The notes: generated by a model not told the origin, from the letters alone. A stretch of DNA of 64,000 nt from Mojavia pulchra JT2-VF2 (GCA_019359325.1 JAHHHN010000012.1:69995-133994), one strand, 5' to 3'. Positions 5,152 to 49,875 are shown, numbered from the stretch's first letter. Translations and numbers: made by a program.

Positions 5152-5841
5152 ATGGATCAATTAGAAAAAGATTTTTGGCCTGCTATTTTTAAGCTACGTT
5201 TTGTTGGTTATATATTATTAGTATTAGCTTTTATTGATGTTATTAATATTTTAATTCCATTTTACTTTACCAATCCTGTTTGGGAATTTCAAATGATAGG
5301 GGCACTTGTAGAACATGCACCTTTACCTTTAATAGGTTTGATATTTGTAGTATTTGGAGAAAGAGATTATCGTAATAAAGTAGAAATTTATTTATTAAGT
5401 CTTGTATCATGGGGTTCTCTCTTGGCTGGGGTTTTATTCTTATTACTACTGCCTTTAGGGATTAATAATACTTGGCGGATTGATAATCAAAATTATCTCC
5501 AAATTAAAAATAATTCTTCACAAAAAATTACCCAAATACGACAGATTAAAGACATTCTGGGAAAAGCTACTACTGACCAAGATATAAATCAAATTTTTAA
5601 ATCGTTAAATCAACAAAAGAATGCGCCAGAGGTAAAAAATCCTCAAGAGGTGAAAAATCAACTGTTATCACAAATCGGAAAATTAGAAAAAAACATCAAT
5701 GATGAAGCTCAAGCAGCACAAAACAATACCCACAAAAAACTCATCAGAAATTCTGTTAAATGGAATTTAGGCGCTTTAATTTGTTCATTTGCGTTTATTT
5801 GGATTTGGCATGTTACAGACTGGGCACGTATACCCTGGTGA
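5152..5841 (+). CDS. HpsJ-like membrane protein, exosortase-associated
   Basis: 229-residue integral membrane protein. Four hydrophobic segments occupy the N-terminal 110 residues (short MDQLEKDFWPAI cytoplasmic start). A charged, probably coiled region follows at about 115-195 (NQQKNAPEVKNPQEVKNQ), then one last membrane segment near the end. This architecture and the motif GERDYRNKVE match the HpsJ-like family that accompanies cyanoexosortase A; HpsJ itself belongs to hormogonium polysaccharide functions. It is 98 bases after the exosortase, so probably the same operon. The molecular role is not known; an accessory role in surface protein or polysaccharide export is inference. Confidence 0.75.
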   Translation: MDQLEKDFWPAIFKLRFVGYILLVLAFIDVINILIPFYFTNPVWEFQMIGALVEHAPLPLIGLIFVVFGERDYRNKVEIYLLSLVSWGSLLAGVLFLLLLPLGINNTWRIDNQNYLQIKNNSSQKITQIRQIKDILGKATTDQDINQIFKSLNQQKNAPEVKNPQEVKNQLLSQIGKLEKNINDEAQAAQNNTHKKLIRNSVKWNLGALICSFAFIWIWHVTDWARIPW

Positions 5842-39389: not shown

Positions 39390-40270
39390 GAGCGCTAAAA
39401 GACATTTTGGTTGTGCAAATAATCTAGCAAAAAATCTAGCTAGCTAGATCTAGCTAAATAGGCAAGATTTAGCCTCTATCTATTGGTATAAATTTCCAGA
39501 ATCAACTAAAAATTCTTACCTAACCTTTATATTTTCTTCTACAATTTATCCAATCTTGATTTCTATTTAAAAAGTTTATATGTAGATAAATAAGCTTTTT
39601 CCTTCAGTTAAGGTTCTATTGTTTGAGGTATGAAGAGGTAATAGTAGGGAGCGTTAGAGTCGAGATTGATTTATCGTTTAATCTCAAATCCAGCAGCTTT
39701 AAATGTATTTATATGACAATAGCTTATACTTGTTAAAATACTGAGTGTATAAATTCAATCAACACCAAACTCTATTTCAGACATAATACTTATATTAAAT
39801 TGTAGAACCCTACTGTTTTATTTAACCAGTATTAGTTGACAAAAATCTGTATAAAAAATAATCATTTTATTGATATAAGACGCTATAAGCTTTCTAAAAT
39901 AAAGCATTTTACGGTCGTTTACACATAAATGCTTAATATTATTAGTATTTATTTAGACTAATAATATTAACAATAAAATTACAAAAATAATCTGAAATAA
40001 TCTGAAATCAGCATACTGAGAGTATAAGAAAACTTATATTTTCTAGGTAGGCAATAACTTTTTAAATTAAAATGAAGTATAAAATACTGCCTAAAAATAT
40101 ATTTTTTTGGACTTTTGTCCTAAATATTTCTTAAAAAAAAAATGCTACATCAGCTATTAAAAACTCTATAATCAAAACAGCAGCACAAAAAGTTACTAAA
40201 TATACTATTTATTGGTTACTTTTATGTGGTGCAACTGTACATTTCCCCTTACTAAGTGAGAACTAAGATT
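39390..40270. other. Long AT-rich region between adaptor and peptide genes
   Basis: About 880 bases of divergent intergenic DNA without an ORF that I support. It begins with AGCTAG repeats near 39436 and contains long A- and T-runs. It presumably holds divergent promoters for the secretion locus, but no specific site can be identified by eye. Confidence 0.6.
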
Positions 40271-40513
40271 ATGGAAAGCACATTGTTTACTACACTCAAT
40301 CCCAACGAAGAAGCCAATATTTCTGGTGGTAAGAGGAAGCCCGCTAAAGTCAGACCTGTCCTCGTCAAGGTTGATATCACGCAATCAGCCGATGGTGGCG
40401 ATGGTGGAGATGTTACTTTGAGTCTTGATGATAAGAGTAAAATTATCAAGTCTACTATTACCCTTACCGGTGGAGCTGGTGGAGATGGTGGAACGAACAC
40501 CGTAAAACTTTAG
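40271..40513 (+). CDS. Double-glycine-leader secreted peptide precursor 1
   Basis: 80 residues. The leader MESTLFTTLNPNEEANISGG ends in the Gly-Gly cleavage site recognised by C39 peptidases, with LN and EEAN in the positions also seen in precursor 2. The mature part KRKPAKVRPVLVKVDITQSA is basic at first. It then carries two glycine/aspartate-rich clusters (ADGGDGGDV and GGAGGDGG) separated by a strand-like segment, ending NTVKL. There is no Cys or Ser/Thr-dense modification pattern. The likely role is a secreted bacteriocin-like, adhesive or signalling peptide. The ATG is preferred to an upstream in-frame GTG. Confidence 0.78.
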   Translation: MESTLFTTLNPNEEANISGGKRKPAKVRPVLVKVDITQSADGGDGGDVTLSLDDKSKIIKSTITLTGGAGGDGGTNTVKL

Positions 40514-40643
40514 AGTAATAGGCAAACTTATGAGGTTTAGGAGGAGGGAAATAATTAACGTAAAGACACGCTTAACCGCGTCTTTACTGGACAAAGGATC
40601 GCGTATTAAAAATTACCCTGTTGACGCAGGTGTAAGTTACTTT

Positions 40644-40696
40644 TACGTAGGAACCTAATAGCTAATCGACTTAATCCTACGTAGCCATTAGCTATT
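40644..40696. promoter_or_regulatory. Interleaved inverted repeats, alternative or pseudoknot-like fold
   Basis: Arm A TACGTAGGA (40644) pairs with TCCTACGTA (40675). Arm B AATAGCTAAT (40657) pairs with ATTAGCTATT (40687). The order A-B-A'-B' means the two stems cannot both form as simple hairpins. Loops are short (4, 8 and 3 bases), so a switch between two hairpins is more likely than a full pseudoknot. A regulatory role is inference. Confidence 0.55.
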
Positions 40697-40772
40697 TATT
40701 GCGGTTATCCTAACATACCTTTTCCTACCCACCTACTTTTCTTCAAAAAACTTAAAAAAGCCTTATTGACGA

Positions 40773-40816
40773 AAGCCTTATTGACGGTTGCTATTATACA
40801 ACCGTCAATAAGGCTT
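40773..40816. other. Long perfect hairpin between peptide genes
   Basis: 18-bp stem AAGCCTTATTGACGGTTG / CAACCGTCAATAAGGCTT with an 8-base loop. An additional direct copy of AAGCCTTATTGACG starts just upstream at 40758-40771. No T-run follows, so this is not a standard terminator in the + direction. It could stabilise an RNA end, be a small RNA, or be a mobile-element trace. Confidence 0.75.
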
Positions 40817-41170
40817 CATTAGCGCGTTTCCCTAAATATACTGCTGAGTTTTGACTAGCGAAGTAGGAAAATTAAACGCTAATTTCTGAAAAATCGACCA
40901 TCTTCATCACAATCTAGCTAGGAATTTCTGAACGATAACGAAACTGTTTTTACAGAGCTTATTCCTAACAGTTAAGTAAATCTGTCTAAAGGTAGACATA
41001 CTAAAATTACCGATATTTTCTCTGTTGATATAATAAAAGAAGATTATTTAAAAGTGGGGAGATTCTGTAAGAAAGCTCACAAGGCTAATTGCGGGAATTT
41101 GAAGACAAATGAAAATAGCTTTGTAAAAGGCTCAAAAGTGATAATTAGCAACCTAGCTTAACGTAAGCTC

Positions 41171-41425
41171 ATGAAAAGCGCTCAAACAACCCCAATGTTT
41201 ATGCCATTGAATGAAATCGAAGAAGCAAACCTGTCTGGCGGTCAGAGTTTGGTGCTTTCTAATCAGGTGATTTCTGGTAAAATTATTATAAAAAAGGGAT
41301 CATCTGGGAAAGCAGGTAGAAAAAATGTAAAAGTCCAAGTTACTCGAACTCTCGAAGAAGGTGAAATTGCAGAGTTAGAAGAATTAGATGATCTATTGTC
41401 CCTATTAGAAAGTGAGTGGGAATGA
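41171..41425 (+). CDS. Double-glycine-leader secreted peptide precursor 2
   Basis: 84 residues. The leader MKSAQTTPMFMPLNEIEEAN leads into LSGG. It shares LNxxEEANxSGG with precursor 1, which shows a common leader recognised by one peptidase. The mature part begins QSLVLSNQVISGKIIIKKGS, is Lys-rich in the middle (KAGRKNVKVQV) and strongly acidic at its end (EEGEIAELEELDDLLSLLES). The opposite charges suggest self-association or binding to a partner. The gene lies 102 bases before the exporter gene in the same direction. Confidence 0.8.
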   Translation: MKSAQTTPMFMPLNEIEEANLSGGQSLVLSNQVISGKIIIKKGSSGKAGRKNVKVQVTRTLEEGEIAELEELDDLLSLLESEWE

Positions 41426-41527
41426 TACTACAACTCAACTGTTGGTCAAATTTTTAACCACGCAGGGAGAACAACCCTGCTATTTTTTTGGGTTTGATCA
41501 CGATGTTATTGGGTATTGGAGTGTGAA

Positions 41528-43672
41528 ATGAAATATCAAGTTGTTGCACAACATAGTGAAGAAGATTGTGGAGCGGCTTGTCTTGCTTCTGTTGCCAAAC
41601 ATTATCGGCGTAACTTTACACTAAATCGCATCCGGGAAGCAGTCGGTACTGGACAATTAGGAACAACATTATTGGGATTGAGGCGGGGAGCTGAGGCGCT
41701 TGGTTTCAATGCACGCTCAGTCAGAGCATCAAATGAAATATTAGACCGGATGAATCAAGCGCCACTGCCAGCAATCATTCACTGGAAAGGCTACCACTGG
41801 GTTGTTTTGTATGGTCAAAAAGGCAAGAAATATGTAGTTGCCGACCCAGCCGTTAACATCCGTTATGTCTCTAGAAAAGAATTAACGGAGGCTTGGTCAG
41901 ATAGGGTGATGCTTTTACTAGAGCCAGATTCGGTTCGCTTTTATGCTCAACCGGATGATAAAATCGACGGTCTTTGGCGCTTTGTGCGGCGTGTATTGCC
42001 TTATAAAGGCATAATATTCGAGGCTTTTCTCTGCGCTCTAGTTATCGGACTGCTTTCGTTAACTTCTCCTTTGCTGCTGCAAATTCTTACAGATGATGTC
42101 CTAGTTCGAGGTGATATCAAGCTTCTTGGTGCTGTGATTATTGCCGTTGTAGTGATGAATTTGGTGTCAAGTAGTCTGCAACTAGTTCAAAATAACCTGA
42201 TTGCCCATTTTGCCCAACGGCTTGAGTTAGGGCTAGTTCTAGAATTTGCTAGAACAATTCTGCGGCTGCCTCTGAATTACTATGAATCCCGTCGCAGTGG
42301 CGAGATTGTTAGCAGATTGCAAGATATTCAACAAATTAATCAGCTAGTTTCTCAGGCAGTTATCGGTCTGCCTAGCCAATTGTTTATTGGAGTGGTTTCT
42401 TTGGGTTTCATGCTGTTCTATAGCTGGAAACTCACCTTTGTTGCCATCATTGTTGCTATTGTCATGAGTTTATCTACAGTGGTTTTCTTGCCTACGCTTC
42501 AACAAAAAGTCAGAAGTGTATTGGTCTTAGACGCAGAAAACCAGGGCGTTCTCGTTGAAAGCTTTAAAGGCGCGCTGACACTCAAAACTACTACTGCTGC
42601 TCCTCAATTTTGGGAAGAATTTCAAAACAGATTTGGTCGGCTATCAAACCAAACATTTCGCACAATTCAGATTGGAATTATTAATAATATATTCTCTGGG
42701 TTAGTTTATGGTATTGGCAGCGTTAGTTTGCTTGGTTTTGGTAGCATCCTGGTTATTAATAAAGAACTTAGCATCGGTCAACTCTTGGCATTTAACGGGA
42801 TGAATGGTAATTTTTTGGGGTTAATCGGTGCTGTACTTGGATTTATAGATGAATTCACTCGTGCCAAAACTGCCACGCAGCGCTTAACAGAAGTTATCGA
42901 CTCTACACCTGAAAATCCAGACGATACTAAAAAACCCTTTGCTAAAATTCCTGGCAATGCAGATATTATTTGCACAAATCTAAACTTTCACTACGCCGGC
43001 AGGCTAGAGCTACTGGAGGATTTTTCCCTCACGATTCCTGGCGGTAAGGTTGTTGCCCTCATTGGTACATCAGGCTGTGGAAAAAGTTCTCTTGCTAAAC
43101 TGATTGCCGGATTATATTCACCTAATTCTGGTAATATTCGCATTGGTATTTATAATCTGCAAGACCTAGCCCTTGATTGTTTACGGCAACAAGTTGTCCT
43201 TGTTCCTCAAGACGCTCATTTTTGGAGTCGCTCGATTGTTGAAAACTTCCGTTTAGGTTCTCCTCATGTCACCTTTGAGCAAATTGTCACCGCTTGCCAA
43301 ATTGCTGAGGCTGACGATTTTATTAGTAAACTCCCTGAAAAATATCAAACTGTCTTAGGTGAATTTGGATCAAATATTTCTGGTGGACAACGCCAAAGAC
43401 TGGCTCTAGCACGAGCCATCATCAACGACCCACCAGTCTTAATTTTAGATGAATCAACTGCTGGACTTGATCCAGTAAGTGAAGCTCAAGTTTTGAATCA
43501 ACTGTTGTTACATCGTAAAGGTAAAACTACGATTCTGATTAGCCACCGTCCTAGAGTAATTATGCGTGCTGATTGGATTGTGCTACTAAACCAAGGCAAA
43601 TTACAAATTCAGGGGACTGTAGAAGATTTGCGTGCCCAACCAGGAAACCATTTAGACTTTTTAACCCCTTAA
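41528..43672 (+). CDS. Peptidase-containing ABC exporter (C39, bacteriocin-type)
   Basis: 714 residues that cut the double-glycine leader and pump the product across the inner membrane. The C39 peptidase (~1-135) has catalytic Cys14 in EEDCGAACLASV, His in GYHWVVLYG and Asp in VADPAV. Six membrane helices follow (~155-440). The ATPase domain has Walker A GTSGCGKSS, signature ISGGQRQRLALARA and Walker B LILDESTAGLD. I prefer the ATG that follows GGAG by 6 bases over an in-frame TTG 12 bases upstream. Adjacent peptide genes and an upstream HlyD gene support a complete secretion module except for the outer-membrane channel. Confidence 0.95.
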   Translation: MKYQVVAQHSEEDCGAACLASVAKHYRRNFTLNRIREAVGTGQLGTTLLGLRRGAEALGFNARSVRASNEILDRMNQAPLPAIIHWKGYHWVVLYGQKGKKYVVADPAVNIRYVSRKELTEAWSDRVMLLLEPDSVRFYAQPDDKIDGLWRFVRRVLPYKGIIFEAFLCALVIGLLSLTSPLLLQILTDDVLVRGDIKLLGAVIIAVVVMNLVSSSLQLVQNNLIAHFAQRLELGLVLEFARTILRLPLNYYESRRSGEIVSRLQDIQQINQLVSQAVIGLPSQLFIGVVSLGFMLFYSWKLTFVAIIVAIVMSLSTVVFLPTLQQKVRSVLVLDAENQGVLVESFKGALTLKTTTAAPQFWEEFQNRFGRLSNQTFRTIQIGIINNIFSGLVYGIGSVSLLGFGSILVINKELSIGQLLAFNGMNGNFLGLIGAVLGFIDEFTRAKTATQRLTEVIDSTPENPDDTKKPFAKIPGNADIICTNLNFHYAGRLELLEDFSLTIPGGKVVALIGTSGCGKSSLAKLIAGLYSPNSGNIRIGIYNLQDLALDCLRQQVVLVPQDAHFWSRSIVENFRLGSPHVTFEQIVTACQIAEADDFISKLPEKYQTVLGEFGSNISGGQRQRLALARAIINDPPVLILDESTAGLDPVSEAQVLNQLLLHRKGKTTILISHRPRVIMRADWIVLLNQGKLQIQGTVEDLRAQPGNHLDFLTP

Positions 43673-44199
43673 CTCTGTTTTATCACTCTTGTCAAAGTAT
43701 AATTGAAGGCGATCGCAAAACTGAGAAAAAGACTATGGTTGAGCCTTGTCCACCCGCGCCCATAGTCCAATTTGTGGATAAGGGCTGCCAGCTGTATCAA
43801 AACCTCTTTCCAAAAGTTAGAAGCTCTGACACTCTCTAACATATTATTTTAACACTTCCATACTTGATAAAATTTAAGTTTTGAATAATACAAAATTTAT
43901 ACGTAAATTTTGGGTTGCAGATAAATAAAATGCTTTATCTACGACTAAATTGAGCTTTTATTCTAAATGTGTAGGGTATATTGGGCACTAATAGATACTA
44001 GCTACGTCAACTATCTTAATTTACTGAAATTGCTGAATTTGCTCCAGGTTCTCTGAGGACAAATTTTGATCCAGGGATGCGCGACTACCAATTAACTAAT
44101 TCTTTAGTAAGCATAAATGCTTGTAGACTATATGACTAGTGGACTTCATCACAAAGCAAGCAATGGCGCATGTGGGTAGTTAACGCATCATTCAAACCT
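43673..44199. other. Gap with one doubtful short ORF
   Basis: A 34-codon frame (43735-43839, MVEPCPPAPIVQFVDKGCQL) begins with ATG after a purine-rich region. It has two Cys and could be a small peptide, but I found no leader similarity to the two precursors, so it is not annotated as a gene. The rest is AT-rich. Confidence 0.4.
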
Positions 44200-45423
44200 A
44201 TGAAATTGATTTTTCTAATTCCAGGTTGGCGACATAGACGCGGAGTGAGTTTTCGTCAGGCGTGGCTCAAACGCTTTTTCCCGATACTTGTTTTAATATC
44301 GTGCGTGACGGCATTACTGGTAGGTAACTTCACCCCTGCGATCGCCCAGCTACCCCGTGAAGAAATTCGCGGGGTTTGGATGACCAACAACGATATCGAT
44401 ATTCTCAAGGAACGAGCCAAAGTGCAGGATGCCGTGAGCCAACTGCGGCGGATGAACTTTAATACTATTTATCCCGTAATATGGAATTCTGGCTATGTGA
44501 TGTATCCCAGCGCCGTAGCAAAAAGTAGAGGTATCCAACCCTTTGTTTTGCGAGGAACCGATGGACATGATATCCTTGCAGACTTAATTAACCAAGCCCA
44601 TCGCCAAGGCTTACTCGTGATTCCCTGGTTTGAGTTTGGTTTTATGGCTCCGCCAACCTCAGAACTGGTATTGAATCATCCAAATTGGTTTACGCAAAAG
44701 CGGGATGGTAGCCAAACTTCTATTAGTGCTGCGGGTGAGGTTATGTGGCTCAATCCCTTTCATCCACAAGTGCAGCAGTTTATCACTGATCTCGTGTTAG
44801 AAAACGTCACCCAGTATGATGCTGATGGCATTCAGTTTGACGATCACATGAGTTTACCCCACGAATTTGGCTACGATCCATACACAGTGGCACTGTACAC
44901 TCAAGAAACTAAGAATAATCCCCCAAGCAATCCTCAAGATCCAGCATGGGTAAAATGGCGGGCAGATAAAATCACAGCGTTCATGGTAAAACTCAACCAA
45001 GCTGTCAAAGCCAGAAAACCCAAAGCAATTTTTTCTGTTTCCCCCAATTACTACGACTTTGCTTACAAGTTTCAACTACAAGACTGGCTTACCTGGATAC
45101 GATTGAATATTGTAGACGAGTTAATTGTGCAAATTTATCGTCCCAATCTTCAAAATTTTATTGCCAATCTTTCCCGAACAGAAATTCGAGAAGCGCAGCA
45201 AGTGATTCCAACCGGAGTTGGAATTATGGCAGGATTGCGAAATAAGCCAGTCCCAATGCGGCAAATTCATTCACAAGTGCGGGCTGCTCAAGAACGCGGC
45301 TTGGGTGTAGCCTTCTTCTACTACGAAAGTTTGTGGGAATCTGCCCCAGAAGAAGTTGCAGAAAGACAGGCTGGACTTCAATCTTTATTCCGCTCTCCCG
45401 CACTTCGCGCCAGGATTGAATAA
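44200..45423 (+). CDS. Family 10-like glycosylhydrolase (GHL10/DUF187)
   Basis: About 407 residues. A basic start and membrane/signal segment (FFPILVLISCVTALLVG) ends with AIAQ, so the enzyme is exported. The mature protein is a TIM barrel with EEIRGVWMTNNDIDIL, then MNFNTIYPVIWNSGYVMYPS and QFDDHMSLPHEFGYDPYT. The Asp-Asp of IQFDDHMS and a Glu near PWFEFGF occupy the typical active-site positions. Family members (YngK-like) are predicted to act on cell-wall or extracellular polysaccharide. I chose the ATG at MKLIFLIPG rather than the upstream one, because it begins the signal sequence. Confidence 0.88.
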   Translation: MKLIFLIPGWRHRRGVSFRQAWLKRFFPILVLISCVTALLVGNFTPAIAQLPREEIRGVWMTNNDIDILKERAKVQDAVSQLRRMNFNTIYPVIWNSGYVMYPSAVAKSRGIQPFVLRGTDGHDILADLINQAHRQGLLVIPWFEFGFMAPPTSELVLNHPNWFTQKRDGSQTSISAAGEVMWLNPFHPQVQQFITDLVLENVTQYDADGIQFDDHMSLPHEFGYDPYTVALYTQETKNNPPSNPQDPAWVKWRADKITAFMVKLNQAVKARKPKAIFSVSPNYYDFAYKFQLQDWLTWIRLNIVDELIVQIYRPNLQNFIANLSRTEIREAQQVIPTGVGIMAGLRNKPVPMRQIHSQVRAAQERGLGVAFFYYESLWESAPEEVAERQAGLQSLFRSPALRARIE

Positions 45424-46701: not shown

Positions 46702-47559
46702 ATGAGTACACAAGAAATGAATGTAACCACATTTGAACTATTGGATATTTCTCATGAAATTAACTCAATTAATGCAGAAATTATCAACAAGTTAGCTTTA
46801 CAAAGCAAAAATATAAATAAAATTTCTTTGGATAGATTGGTTCAGCAAAAAGCCAAGCTAATAGAGGCTGAAAGAAGCCAAGTAGCTCCTATAGCTCAAA
46901 AAGTTATCAATCGGATGCAGCTAAAAATGCAAGAAATAGATGAACTACTATCTACAAGAAAGGAGCAAGGTAAAATCACCTGTGACGGTTATATCCGCTA
47001 TTTAATTCAAGCTTGGTATTGTAGTAGCCATACCCCTGATTTTCAAGTTTTATTTCATCAACGTATAGCTGAATATACGAAAAGTTTTTCTGAGGAAAAA
47101 TTAAAACGCGGAAGCAAATTTGTTCACACAATGGAATCCGAGGCTGATGAGGAGATAGGACACGAAGTCTTGGCATTAAGGGATTTACAAAAATTAGGTG
47201 TTCAGATATTTAATAAAATTAATGACGTTTTCGATGAATCAAAAAGCTTAATTAATTCACAAAATAAACTGTTAAATCAAAGTAACTTCATAGGCTTTTT
47301 AGGATACTCATCCTACATGGAGTTTTTGTTTGCTAAACATATTGGTTATCAACTAGAACTTTTGAGCGAAGCAGGAATTAATAGAGAAGCTCAAACCTTT
47401 TTATACAATCACTATGTTATTGATTTAAGTCATGCTGGGCATGACATAGATTTACTTAACTTTTTCGTTGACAATGAGGAAATTTTAAATATAATAAATG
47501 AGAATATTGATGTTGTCCACTCGTTTTATAAAGGCATTATAGCCAGAGCTTTTAACTAA
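46702..47559 (+). CDS. Heme-oxygenase-like diiron oxidase family protein
   Basis: 285-residue all-helical protein of the heme-oxygenase-like (iron-containing redox enzyme, HDO) superfamily. The metal-binding helix is DEEIGHEVLALRDLQKLG (E151, H154, possible D161). A later helix has HYVIDLSHAGHDIDLL with H244, H247 and D250 suited to a second iron. Members cleave or oxidise amino-acid or fatty-acid-derived substrates in natural-product pathways. The gene begins a same-strand run with four biosynthetic genes, with an AAAGGA site before the ATG. It is 468 bases from the ScyA-like gene, so it may have its own promoter or share the operon. The reaction is unknown. Confidence 0.75.
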   Translation: MSTQEMNVTTFELLDISHEINSINAEIINKLALQSKNINKISLDRLVQQKAKLIEAERSQVAPIAQKVINRMQLKMQEIDELLSTRKEQGKITCDGYIRYLIQAWYCSSHTPDFQVLFHQRIAEYTKSFSEEKLKRGSKFVHTMESEADEEIGHEVLALRDLQKLGVQIFNKINDVFDESKSLINSQNKLLNQSNFIGFLGYSSYMEFLFAKHIGYQLELLSEAGINREAQTFLYNHYVIDLSHAGHDIDLLNFFVDNEEILNIINENIDVVHSFYKGIIARAFN

Positions 47560-48027: not shown

Positions 48028-49875
48028 ATGAACGAAAATAAAGTTTCATCGAACTTGCTTGTGCAATCCCCGTTTTACAACAAATTGGCAATGAAGTTAA
48101 TGGAATCGAGGCTAACTAACGCTAAACTCAATGATGATTACCTCAGACATGAAAAGCACGCAGACATCAAGTCATCCCCATCGCTCTTACTCTCAGATGC
48201 AATTGTCAAGTTACTAGAAGATTTAGGAGTTAAATACGCCTTTGGTGTTTCTGGCGGCGCGATGGCAAAGCTTTGGGGTTCACTCTCAAACAGCCAGATC
48301 CAAGTACTTCACTTTCGCCACGAAGTCGGAGCAGCCTTTGCAGCAGCAGAAGCATCTTTGGCTAGCGATCGCCCTGTTGTCATCTTCACCACAGCAGGCC
48401 CAGGTATTACCAACGCCTTGACCGGGATTTTAGCAGCGCGTGGTGAGGGAGCAAAGGTGATTCTCCTATCCGCTTCTACTTCAGCATTACAGCATGGACG
48501 GTATGCGATCCAAGAAACTCATGAGCAGACAATACCTGGAGGAATTTTTACCTCAGGAGCGCTGTTCCATTATGCAACAACTCTTGAGTGCGCCGAACAA
48601 CTGCCACAAGCTGCTCGCAGAATTGCTCTTGGCTTAACAAGACCAAACGGCTTTGTGGCTCATTTGAGTATTCCGACAAACTTGCAGTCGAGTTTGATAC
48701 ATGAATCTTTACCTCAAGTAGATTTATCTTTGGCGCAAAATATTCCTAGCAAAGACACAATTGCCAAATGCATACATCTACTATCTGAAGGTAACTTTGC
48801 GATCTGGGTTGGTTTTGGTGCAAGATCCGCAGCCGAAGAGATCCGCCAACTGGCTGAAAGAACCGGAGCCGCAGTCATGTGTTCACCTCGTGGCAAAGGT
48901 ATTTTCCCTGAAAATCATCCTCAGTTTGTGGGCGTTACAGGTTTGGGGGGTCATGCTTCAGTATTTACATATATGCAAAAGCATTCTCCTCAACGCATAT
49001 TAGTCTTAGGAACCCGCCTTGGGGAACCGACTTCTTTCTGGAGCAGCCAAATGATTCCCCAAGCTGGATTTGTTCATGTTGATGTTGATCCAGATATTCT
49101 AGGGGTTGCCTATCCATCCGTGCCAACTTTTCCTGTTCTATGTGAAGTGAAAACTTTTGTGGAGTCACTGCTGCAATACTGGCCAGACAATTTTGCAGAA
49201 TCAAAATTAGTAACCCTACCTCATCCTGAAGCTGAAATAATTCAACCAAGCAACAATGAACTAGTACGCCCTGAAGTCTTAATGCAGCAGATTCAGCAGG
49301 TGTGCGTTGAAAACAGCGATGCAATTATTATGGCAGAATCGGGTAATTCGTTTACTTGGGCAACCCACCTCCTACGATTTGCCCTACCTAAGCGTTATCG
49401 AGTCAGTACTGCAATTGGAGCTATGGGTCATGCAGCTACGGGAGTTGTTGGTGCTGCTAAAGCTCATGGCAAAGCGATCGCCATTGTTGGCGATGGTGCA
49501 ATGTTGATGAACAACGAAATCAGCACAGCAGTGAAATACAAGATTCCTGCCGTCTGGATTGTCCTCAATGATGCCCGATACAATATGTGTTTCCAGGGAA
49601 TGGCAATGCTAGGGCTTGAGGCAGATGCAACCATTCCCCGCACAGATTTTGTGATGATTGCTCGCGGTATGGGGGCTGATGGTATTCGCGTCGAAACTGA
49701 ATCTGATATTCGCAAAGCCTTAGAACAAGCACTGGCAGCCTCTACCCCATTTGTGATTGATGTAATGATCGACCCAACTCGGCAAGCACCATCTCGCGGA
49801 CGTAATCAAGGTTTACTTGCCCAAGGAGTTGCAGATAGTCCAAACAAAGAAATTTCATTTCCCTTGCTAAAGTAA
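48028..49875 (+). CDS. scyA: ScyA-like ThDP-dependent acyloin synthase
   Basis: 615 residues of the acetolactate-synthase/ScyA group of ThDP enzymes. ScyA of the scytonemin pathway couples two aromatic 2-oxo acids (indole-3-pyruvate and p-hydroxyphenylpyruvate) to a beta-ketoacid, losing CO2. Key residues are present: Glu99 in HFRHEVGAAFAAAEA, the Mg-ThDP motif GDGAMLMNNE (488 onward) and NDARYN. The first ~50 residues form an extension with no recognised domain. The neighbours (ScyB-like dehydrogenase, ScyC-like cyclase) support this assignment over housekeeping acetolactate synthase. The true substrates may differ, because scyD-F are absent here. An internal ATG at 48091 could also be the start. 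Confidence 0.8.
   Translation: MNENKVSSNLLVQSPFYNKLAMKLMESRLTNAKLNDDYLRHEKHADIKSSPSLLLSDAIVKLLEDLGVKYAFGVSGGAMAKLWGSLSNSQIQVLHFRHEVGAAFAAAEASLASDRPVVIFTTAGPGITNALTGILAARGEGAKVILLSASTSALQHGRYAIQETHEQTIPGGIFTSGALFHYATTLECAEQLPQAARRIALGLTRPNGFVAHLSIPTNLQSSLIHESLPQVDLSLAQNIPSKDTIAKCIHLLSEGNFAIWVGFGARSAAEEIRQLAERTGAAVMCSPRGKGIFPENHPQFVGVTGLGGHASVFTYMQKHSPQRILVLGTRLGEPTSFWSSQMIPQAGFVHVDVDPDILGVAYPSVPTFPVLCEVKTFVESLLQYWPDNFAESKLVTLPHPEAEIIQPSNNELVRPEVLMQQIQQVCVENSDAIIMAESGNSFTWATHLLRFALPKRYRVSTAIGAMGHAATGVVGAAKAHGKAIAIVGDGAMLMNNEISTAVKYKIPAVWIVLNDARYNMCFQGMAMLGLEADATIPRTDFVMIARGMGADGIRVETESDIRKALEQALAASTPFVIDVMIDPTRQAPSRGRNQGLLAQGVADSPNKEISFPLLK

Follow-up and report, generated by a model that had tools for sequence, protein, structure and literature searches.

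A 64,000-nucleotide stretch of the Mojavia pulchra JT2-VF2 genome (GCA_019359325.1, JAHHHN010000012.1:69995-133994; referred to as the window and numbered from its first letter) carries two small double-glycine precursor genes next to an ATP-binding cassette (ABC) exporter with a C39 peptidase domain. We propose that this leader-guided C39 system exports repeat-rich peptides with a structural or adhesive function at the Nostoc cell surface or in its sheath or colony matrix, a reading to which we assign a probability of about 0.55. Within this proposal, export by the C39 unit is well supported by the anatomy of the locus, while the matrix role of the peptides is inferred from their repeats and from the precedent of the EbfG/PteB system discussed below. 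The first-pass annotation of the window had already pointed out both open reading frames (ORFs), their common double-glycine leader and the adjoining C39-ABC exporter, and each of these elements was found in place.

The class A and class B precursors of the window start with the leaders MESTLFTTLNPNEEANISGG and MKSAQTTPMFMPLNEIEEANLSGG, followed by the mature parts KRKPAKVRPVLVKVDITQSADGGDGGDVTLSLDDKSKIIKSTITLTGGAGGDGGTNTVKL and QSLVLSNQVISGKIIIKKGSSGKAGRKNVKVQVTRTLEEGEIAELEELDDLLSLLESEWE, respectively. The leader follows the double-glycine pattern, with hydrophobic residues at –12 and –4, an acidic residue at –8, glycines at –2/–1 and a C39 exporter adjoining. More specifically, L–16, F–15, L–12, E–8 and L/I–4 were conserved, and F6, L9, E13, E14, G19 and G20 were invariant in the leader alignment (A1). 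The underlying DNA pattern (GARGARGCNAAYNTNTCNGGNGG) matched twice in the window versus 0.02 times in shuffles, and nowhere else in the whole 8.2-Mb host genome did it match with fewer than three mismatches. Because a full-length class A query returned mostly Gly-rich background matches, relatives were searched with a hidden Markov model (HMM) built from the leader alone (alignment A1), with E<1e-3 taken as a strong match. This HMM scored 50.3 bits (E 3.0e-12) on the window class A and 45.1 bits on the window class B precursor. The host has named Nostocaceae among its relatives, and strong leader matches were present in 30 of the 217 genomes of this family, with E-values reaching 6e-13 and mostly within one genus that includes named Nostoc strains; among 388 sampled genomes of the order, only two outside the family gave a strong match. 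Presence of the leader in homologues, which had been named beforehand as one of the points on which the first interpretation should stand or fall, was thus borne out. All counts given here rest on draft genomes, in which loci at contig ends may be short of genes.

Further conservation surrounds the precursor genes. Class A genes share a conserved 5′ box with the pattern AATCAAGCGAGAACTAAGATT-ATG that was found before most of those in relatives, the start codon of the precursors is kept along with it, and the third-codon-position excess within the leaders amounted to 0.292 versus 0.17. Neither window precursor scored above any Pfam or NCBIfam cut-off, and the weak matches to FlgI, GTP1_OBG, formyl-CoA transferase and similar families were composition artefacts. 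While this lack of family matches is what would be seen if both ORFs were open by chance and their likeness to a leader a coincidence, that explanation is ruled out for practical purposes by the leader counts against shuffles and genome, the recurrence in relatives at such E-values, the conserved box and start codon, the codon-position excess and the conserved gene order.

In total, 45 loci yielded 131 precursors, and those that were parsed had 124 distinct mature parts. The precursors could be divided into two classes whose counts depend on the regular expressions used for sorting. Class A precursors, occurring in 1–6 copies per locus, have a MES-x-LFT type leader (MESTLFTxLxxNEEANLSGG) that remains constant in front of hypervariable mature parts. 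Among the 106 class A mature parts, 62 contained at least 25% Gly, many having GGX repeats (present in 53/106), whereas 15 were Pro-rich (Pro/Thr) and 10 showed Q/N beta-repeats of the form QTAVNVxxG. The window class A mature part (60 aa, pI 9.5), with its GGDGGD and GGAGGDGG repeats, falls in the mixed remainder of this class. Class B precursors are single-copy and have a leader of the form M(K/E)STQTSPMFISLTETEEANLSGG (STQTSPMF... type, with QISPMF or QIFPMF forms also occurring). Their mature parts consist of a collagen-like or Lys/Gly tract and then a C-terminal stretch predicted to be helical (alignment A4). The Pfam Collagen model (PF01391) was matched by 9 of 20 class B proteins (best E 1.3e-7), and several also matched NCBIfam collagen-like adhesin models; the window's own class B protein had no PF01391 match. 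The latter, which is 52% identical to the class B protein of locus L174, has a mature part of 60 aa (pI 4.9) with a KKGSSGKAG tract and a predicted acidic C-terminal helix, placed at 70–83 by a low-confidence model. Its earlier description as Lys-rich and then acidic, next to a Gly-Asp-rich partner, therefore needs one correction, as it also contains a GSSGKAG tract that matches the collagen-like tract of its relatives. Cys was present in only 3 of the 124 mature parts of both classes together, in line with the earlier remark that lanthipeptide-type Cys is missing from the peptides.

Wherever an intact class B gene and an exporter share one locus, class B is the precursor nearest to the exporter. 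Decayed or frameshifted copies were seen for class B in L166, L153 and L090 and for class A in L140. Moreover, orphan clusters with several precursors, having no exporter within ~16–19 kb, occurred at L091, L135, L139, L140, L146, L154 and L158, and these are presumably served in trans or else abandoned. That two unlike peptides are encoded at one locus was correctly seen at the outset, the window holding one precursor of each class. The suggestion that they could form a two-component system, however, needs changing, as the two peptides are not a fixed pair: copy numbers vary among relatives, and because some of these have lost B or hold only A, a strict two-component mechanism is unsupported.

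The exporter contains a C39 domain (PF03412, E 9.7e-37) followed by the PF00664 and PF00005 domains, which also scored far above cut-off. Its catalytic residues Q8, C14, H90 and D106 (counted from ATG 41528) confirm the full C39 triad claimed for the exporter right after the second precursor, and its Walker A, signature and Walker B motifs are intact. With an N-terminal C39 domain bearing Q, C, H and D in front of ABC membrane and ATPase domains, it has the make-up of a PCAT exporter. Translation most likely starts at ATG 41528 rather than at TTG 41516, since the resulting 714 aa is the length found in relatives. At 80% identity or more, the exporter was present in 23 genomes, all of them leader-positive, and in none of the 183 leader-negative genomes, with two leader-positive genomes lacking it (23 of 25 versus 0 of 183 genomes; Fisher p 1e-28, with related genomes counted as if independent). 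In an exporter tree with 85 members, these exporters formed a 26-row clade with 100% support, with G012 next to it, and in a neighbouring 38-row clade (100% support as well) the precursors are of the type MSNELFTEVSVEQQEIVAGG.

An intrinsic terminator with a GCAGGG/CCCTGC stem and T-run separates precursor B from the exporter. Across the exporter clade, such a terminator was retained ahead of the exporter gene in 25 of the 27 loci, usually 60–73 bases from its start codon, versus 1 of 55 other loci. The window copy is the only such site in the host genome, and the same terminator also stands 3′ of class B in orphan clusters. Most likely, it ends precursor transcripts and would thereby yield far more precursor than exporter. 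The hairpin 3′ of the class A gene has similar counterparts 3′ of 18 class A genes in relatives; it occurs as one exact copy in its own genome and is terminator-like on the minus strand only. The gap between both precursors additionally holds a long inverted repeat at 40774–40815 (GCCTTATTGACGGTTG...CAACCGTCAATAAGGC, predicted –32.8 kcal/mol), possibly a small mobile or REP-like element.

Together, these parts would constitute a self-contained type I secretion unit (Table 1). In the mechanism that we propose, the C39 domain of the exporter would recognise the amphipathic leader and cut the precursor after Gly-Gly, upon which the mature peptide would be pumped out via the ABC exporter, the nearby HlyD protein and a TolC-type channel encoded elsewhere. 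Apparently unmodified repeat peptides would make up the cargo, with class A in tandem and hypervariable and class B as one copy beside the exporter, and the terminator after B would keep exporter expression below precursor expression. Once outside, the peptides may become structural or adhesive parts of the cell surface, sheath or colony matrix.

Table 1. Features of the double-glycine peptide locus, in window coordinates
Feature	Position	Strand	Basis or remark
HlyD-type membrane fusion protein, 444 aa	38055..39389	-	Pfam HlyD_3 and Biotin_lipoyl_2
Conserved upstream box / ribosome-binding region AAGTGAGAACTAAGATT	40251..40270	+	directly 5′ of class A start codon
Class A precursor, 80 aa	40271..40513	+	ORF, leader HMM match, composition
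Hairpin GTAAAGACACGCTTAACCGCGTCTTTAC	40560..40587	.	3′ of class A gene
Class B precursor, 84 aa	41171..41425	+	ORF, leader HMM match
Intrinsic terminator GCAGGG-loop-CCCTGC-TATTTTTTT	41462..41489	+	terminator scan; between precursor B and exporter
C39 peptidase-containing ABC exporter, 714 aa	41528..43672	+	PF03412/PF00664/PF00005

The hlyD gene, unmentioned in the first-pass annotation, is divergent from the precursor genes and belongs to the unit, as 27 of the 30 loci from relatives have a homologue close to the exporter; the best NCBIfam match of its product was TIGR01843, under cut-off. Within ~8 kb, the only gene content kept across loci consisted of hlyD, the precursors and the exporter. 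No modification enzyme, immunity gene, regulator, receptor or kinase was conserved beside the unit in this range, which agrees with the earlier statement that no modification enzyme is visible. The downstream neighbours in the window, a GHL10 glycosyl hydrolase-like gene (44170–45423), a haem-oxygenase-like gene (46702–47559) and a thiamine-pyrophosphate enzyme gene (48028–49875), are not conserved with the unit. A search of plasmid records gave no match.

Among the closest known systems are the CTB family bacteriocin clusters (NCBIfam NF038167, cyan_ocin_like). These share the leader register (LFT at –16 to –14, hydrophobic –12, E/Q –8, hydrophobic –4, GG), small precursors just 5′ of the exporter, and a sister C39 exporter clade at ~70–76% identity, one precursor of which matches NF038167 at 35.9 bits (cut-off 32 bits). 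However, the leader core reads EEANLSGG in the window family versus QQEIVAGG in CTB, the mature parts of the window family are repeat-rich or collagen-like, and the pre-exporter terminator sets the window clade apart. Moreover, NF038167 matched neither the window precursors (E up to 10) nor 28 class A and 20 class B proteins (E up to 0.1), and CTB membership was rejected on this ground despite the related leader and exporter. Likewise, NHLP and Nif11-type precursors were dismissed (no model match and no conserved enzyme near the unit), as were lanthipeptides, given the scarcity of Cys and the lack of a conserved LanM/LanBC-type enzyme. A class IIb two-peptide bacteriocin is at odds with the varying copy numbers, the absence or decay of B in several relatives and the lack of a conserved immunity gene.

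The solved structures closest to the exporter over its full length are the PCAT1-type entries 4ry2 and 8vp3, with which it aligns end to end over the C39, membrane and ATPase parts, the catalytic residues being intact. The cargo of PCAT1 is unrelated to the window precursors, and no HlyD partner is known for PCAT1. The Gly-X-Y tracts of class B relatives match models of collagen-like adhesins (SclA/SclB, Lcl; PF01391), but class B proteins are far shorter (~4–16 triplets), have a double-glycine leader and lack an LPXTG anchor, and in the class B protein of the window just a vestige of the tract is left. In the 2011 survey of cyanobacterial bacteriocin clusters by Wang et al. (PMC3140520), group III clusters likewise combine a short C39-ABC exporter without cyclic-nucleotide domain, HlyD and tandem precursors in the absence of SurA or LanM; the window differs from them in its divergent hlyD and in precursors that match neither NHLP nor Nif11-type models. 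In Synechococcus elongatus, the medium contained EbfG peptides that begin directly behind GG, and both efficient EbfG secretion and biofilm required the C39 cysteine of PteB (PMC4997328). Of the EbfG1-4 peptides, EbfG1-3 form amyloid, and EbfG4 is found on cells and in the matrix (PMC9981879). Like the window system, EbfG1-4/PteB combines a C39 exporter with several small proteins of the double-glycine type; the conserved terminator between precursor and exporter belongs to the window system.

A surface or matrix role is preferred above all because the cargo consists of repeats typical of structural or adhesive proteins, which change rapidly in kind behind a fixed leader, and also because of the EbfG1-4/PteB precedent; the repeats themselves suggest surface or matrix building material rather than ordinary antibiotics. 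Several points weigh against this role. Expression, cleavage, export and location of the window peptides are predicted from the genes, the matrix and surface role having been shown for EbfG, the mature parts of which differ in sequence from those of the window family. The collagen-like tract of the window class B has shrunk to GSSGKAG, and structure models of both precursors were too poor to show a fold (predicted local distance difference test, pLDDT, 58.6 and 52). Curlin repeats, which the QTAVNV-type class A parts resemble by eye, were rejected for want of a Pfam match, leaving curlin-type amyloid in these Q/N repeats without any such match. Finally, the sister clusters carry a bacteriocin annotation (CTB family), and diversified mature parts would equally suit toxins or recognition signals.

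Indeed, the peptides might be bacteriocins, as the CTB name of the sister clade implies: toxins, diversified and cleaved from a leader, that target related cyanobacteria. The leader profiles of the window family and CTB are related (hhalign probability 96), tandem hypervariable precursors with presence and absence between species fit warfare, and the induction of CTB genes by phosphate starvation in Nodularia (PMC9846622) can be counted on the same side. Nevertheless, no immunity gene is conserved beside the cluster, the mature parts are Gly-, Pro- or Q/N-repeat low-complexity or collagen-like sequences, no bacteriocin family matched any tested member, and the 'CTB bacteriocin' name is an annotation for which no demonstrated activity was found, making toxins unlikely in our view. 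Less probable still is a role as secreted signals or kin-recognition tags, in which a receptor would read the variable mature part during, for example, filament differentiation or symbiosis. C39 exporters do export signals as well, as in HetC, a peptidase-containing exporter needed for heterocyst formation and proposed to export a signalling peptide (PMC10986499), and variation sits in the mature region while conservation sits in the leader; yet no receptor, kinase or regulator is conserved beside the unit, low-complexity repeats of mostly 50–90 aa would be unusual signals, and several divergent copies per locus would make for a noisy one. We attach even less credence to an action of the GGX-repeat peptides on ice or water (antifreeze, desiccation, hydration) via polyglycine-II helices in Nostoc of exposed habitats. 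This idea draws on the GGX repeats of class A, which we take to resemble snow-flea antifreeze repeats, and on relatives such as Nostoc sp. CCCryo 231-06, Nostoc desertorum and a Peltigera lichen cyanobiont, but many family members with the same exporter clade are Pro-rich or Q/N-rich without GGX, and no structure was predicted with confidence.

Other double-glycine loci were noted alongside. The host genome (G000) encodes nine C39-domain proteins, several with their own distinct precursor types. On its contig C46 (L099 7774–9008), two larger double-glycine proteins (116 and 149 aa) stand beside another C39 exporter and HlyD; their repeated FN...W-type stretches are crystallin-like by eye only, and the one examined had no Pfam match. 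Contig C24 (L094 4304–12199) carries in a row a Cys-containing double-glycine peptide with GNTSNPVLGLC-type repeat units, a 1093-aa protein, a C39 exporter and HlyD, which looks like a lanthipeptide cluster. On contig C60 (L096 7041–7837), two paralogous double-glycine peptides of 67–69 aa (SELSCEDINIVRGG) lie near a long-type 1009-aa C39 protein. In Phormidium sp. LEGE 05292 (L246), three tandem double-glycine precursors with Tyr/Gly/Arg-rich mature parts (YYGCYYGGYGYRRYRR...) are located ~0.4–1.0 kb before a related C39 exporter at 5818.

Clusters of this kind are known, since tandem double-glycine precursors with C39 clusters in cyanobacteria have been catalogued since 2011 (PMC3140520, the main text of which does not mention a collagen-like or Gly-rich class). 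What appears to be new is the family, a large one that had not been modelled before, with its own leader and exporter clade, its A/B division, its collagen-like class and its conserved terminator; searches of open-access full texts brought up no description of collagen-like peptides behind a double-glycine leader. Tentatively, some Nostoc may be pictured as building part of their colony matrix from small C39-exported repeat peptides in modular fashion, with class B, one per cluster, as collagen-like anchor or organiser and class A as a rapidly changing assortment of polyglycine, polyproline or Q/N beta-repeat peptides. If so, collagen-like and polyglycine-type structural peptides would be secreted via the double-glycine leader route.

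Cyanobacterial double-glycine clusters are routinely filed as bacteriocins without shown activity, and the structural-type cargo described here provides a sequence-based reason to look elsewhere. Should a matrix role hold true, the system would allow the annotation 'CTB family bacteriocin' to be put to the test. It would also open the proteins of the Nostoc colony matrix to genetic study and supply short collagen-like and polyglycine peptides that are genetically encoded and come with an export tag of their own.

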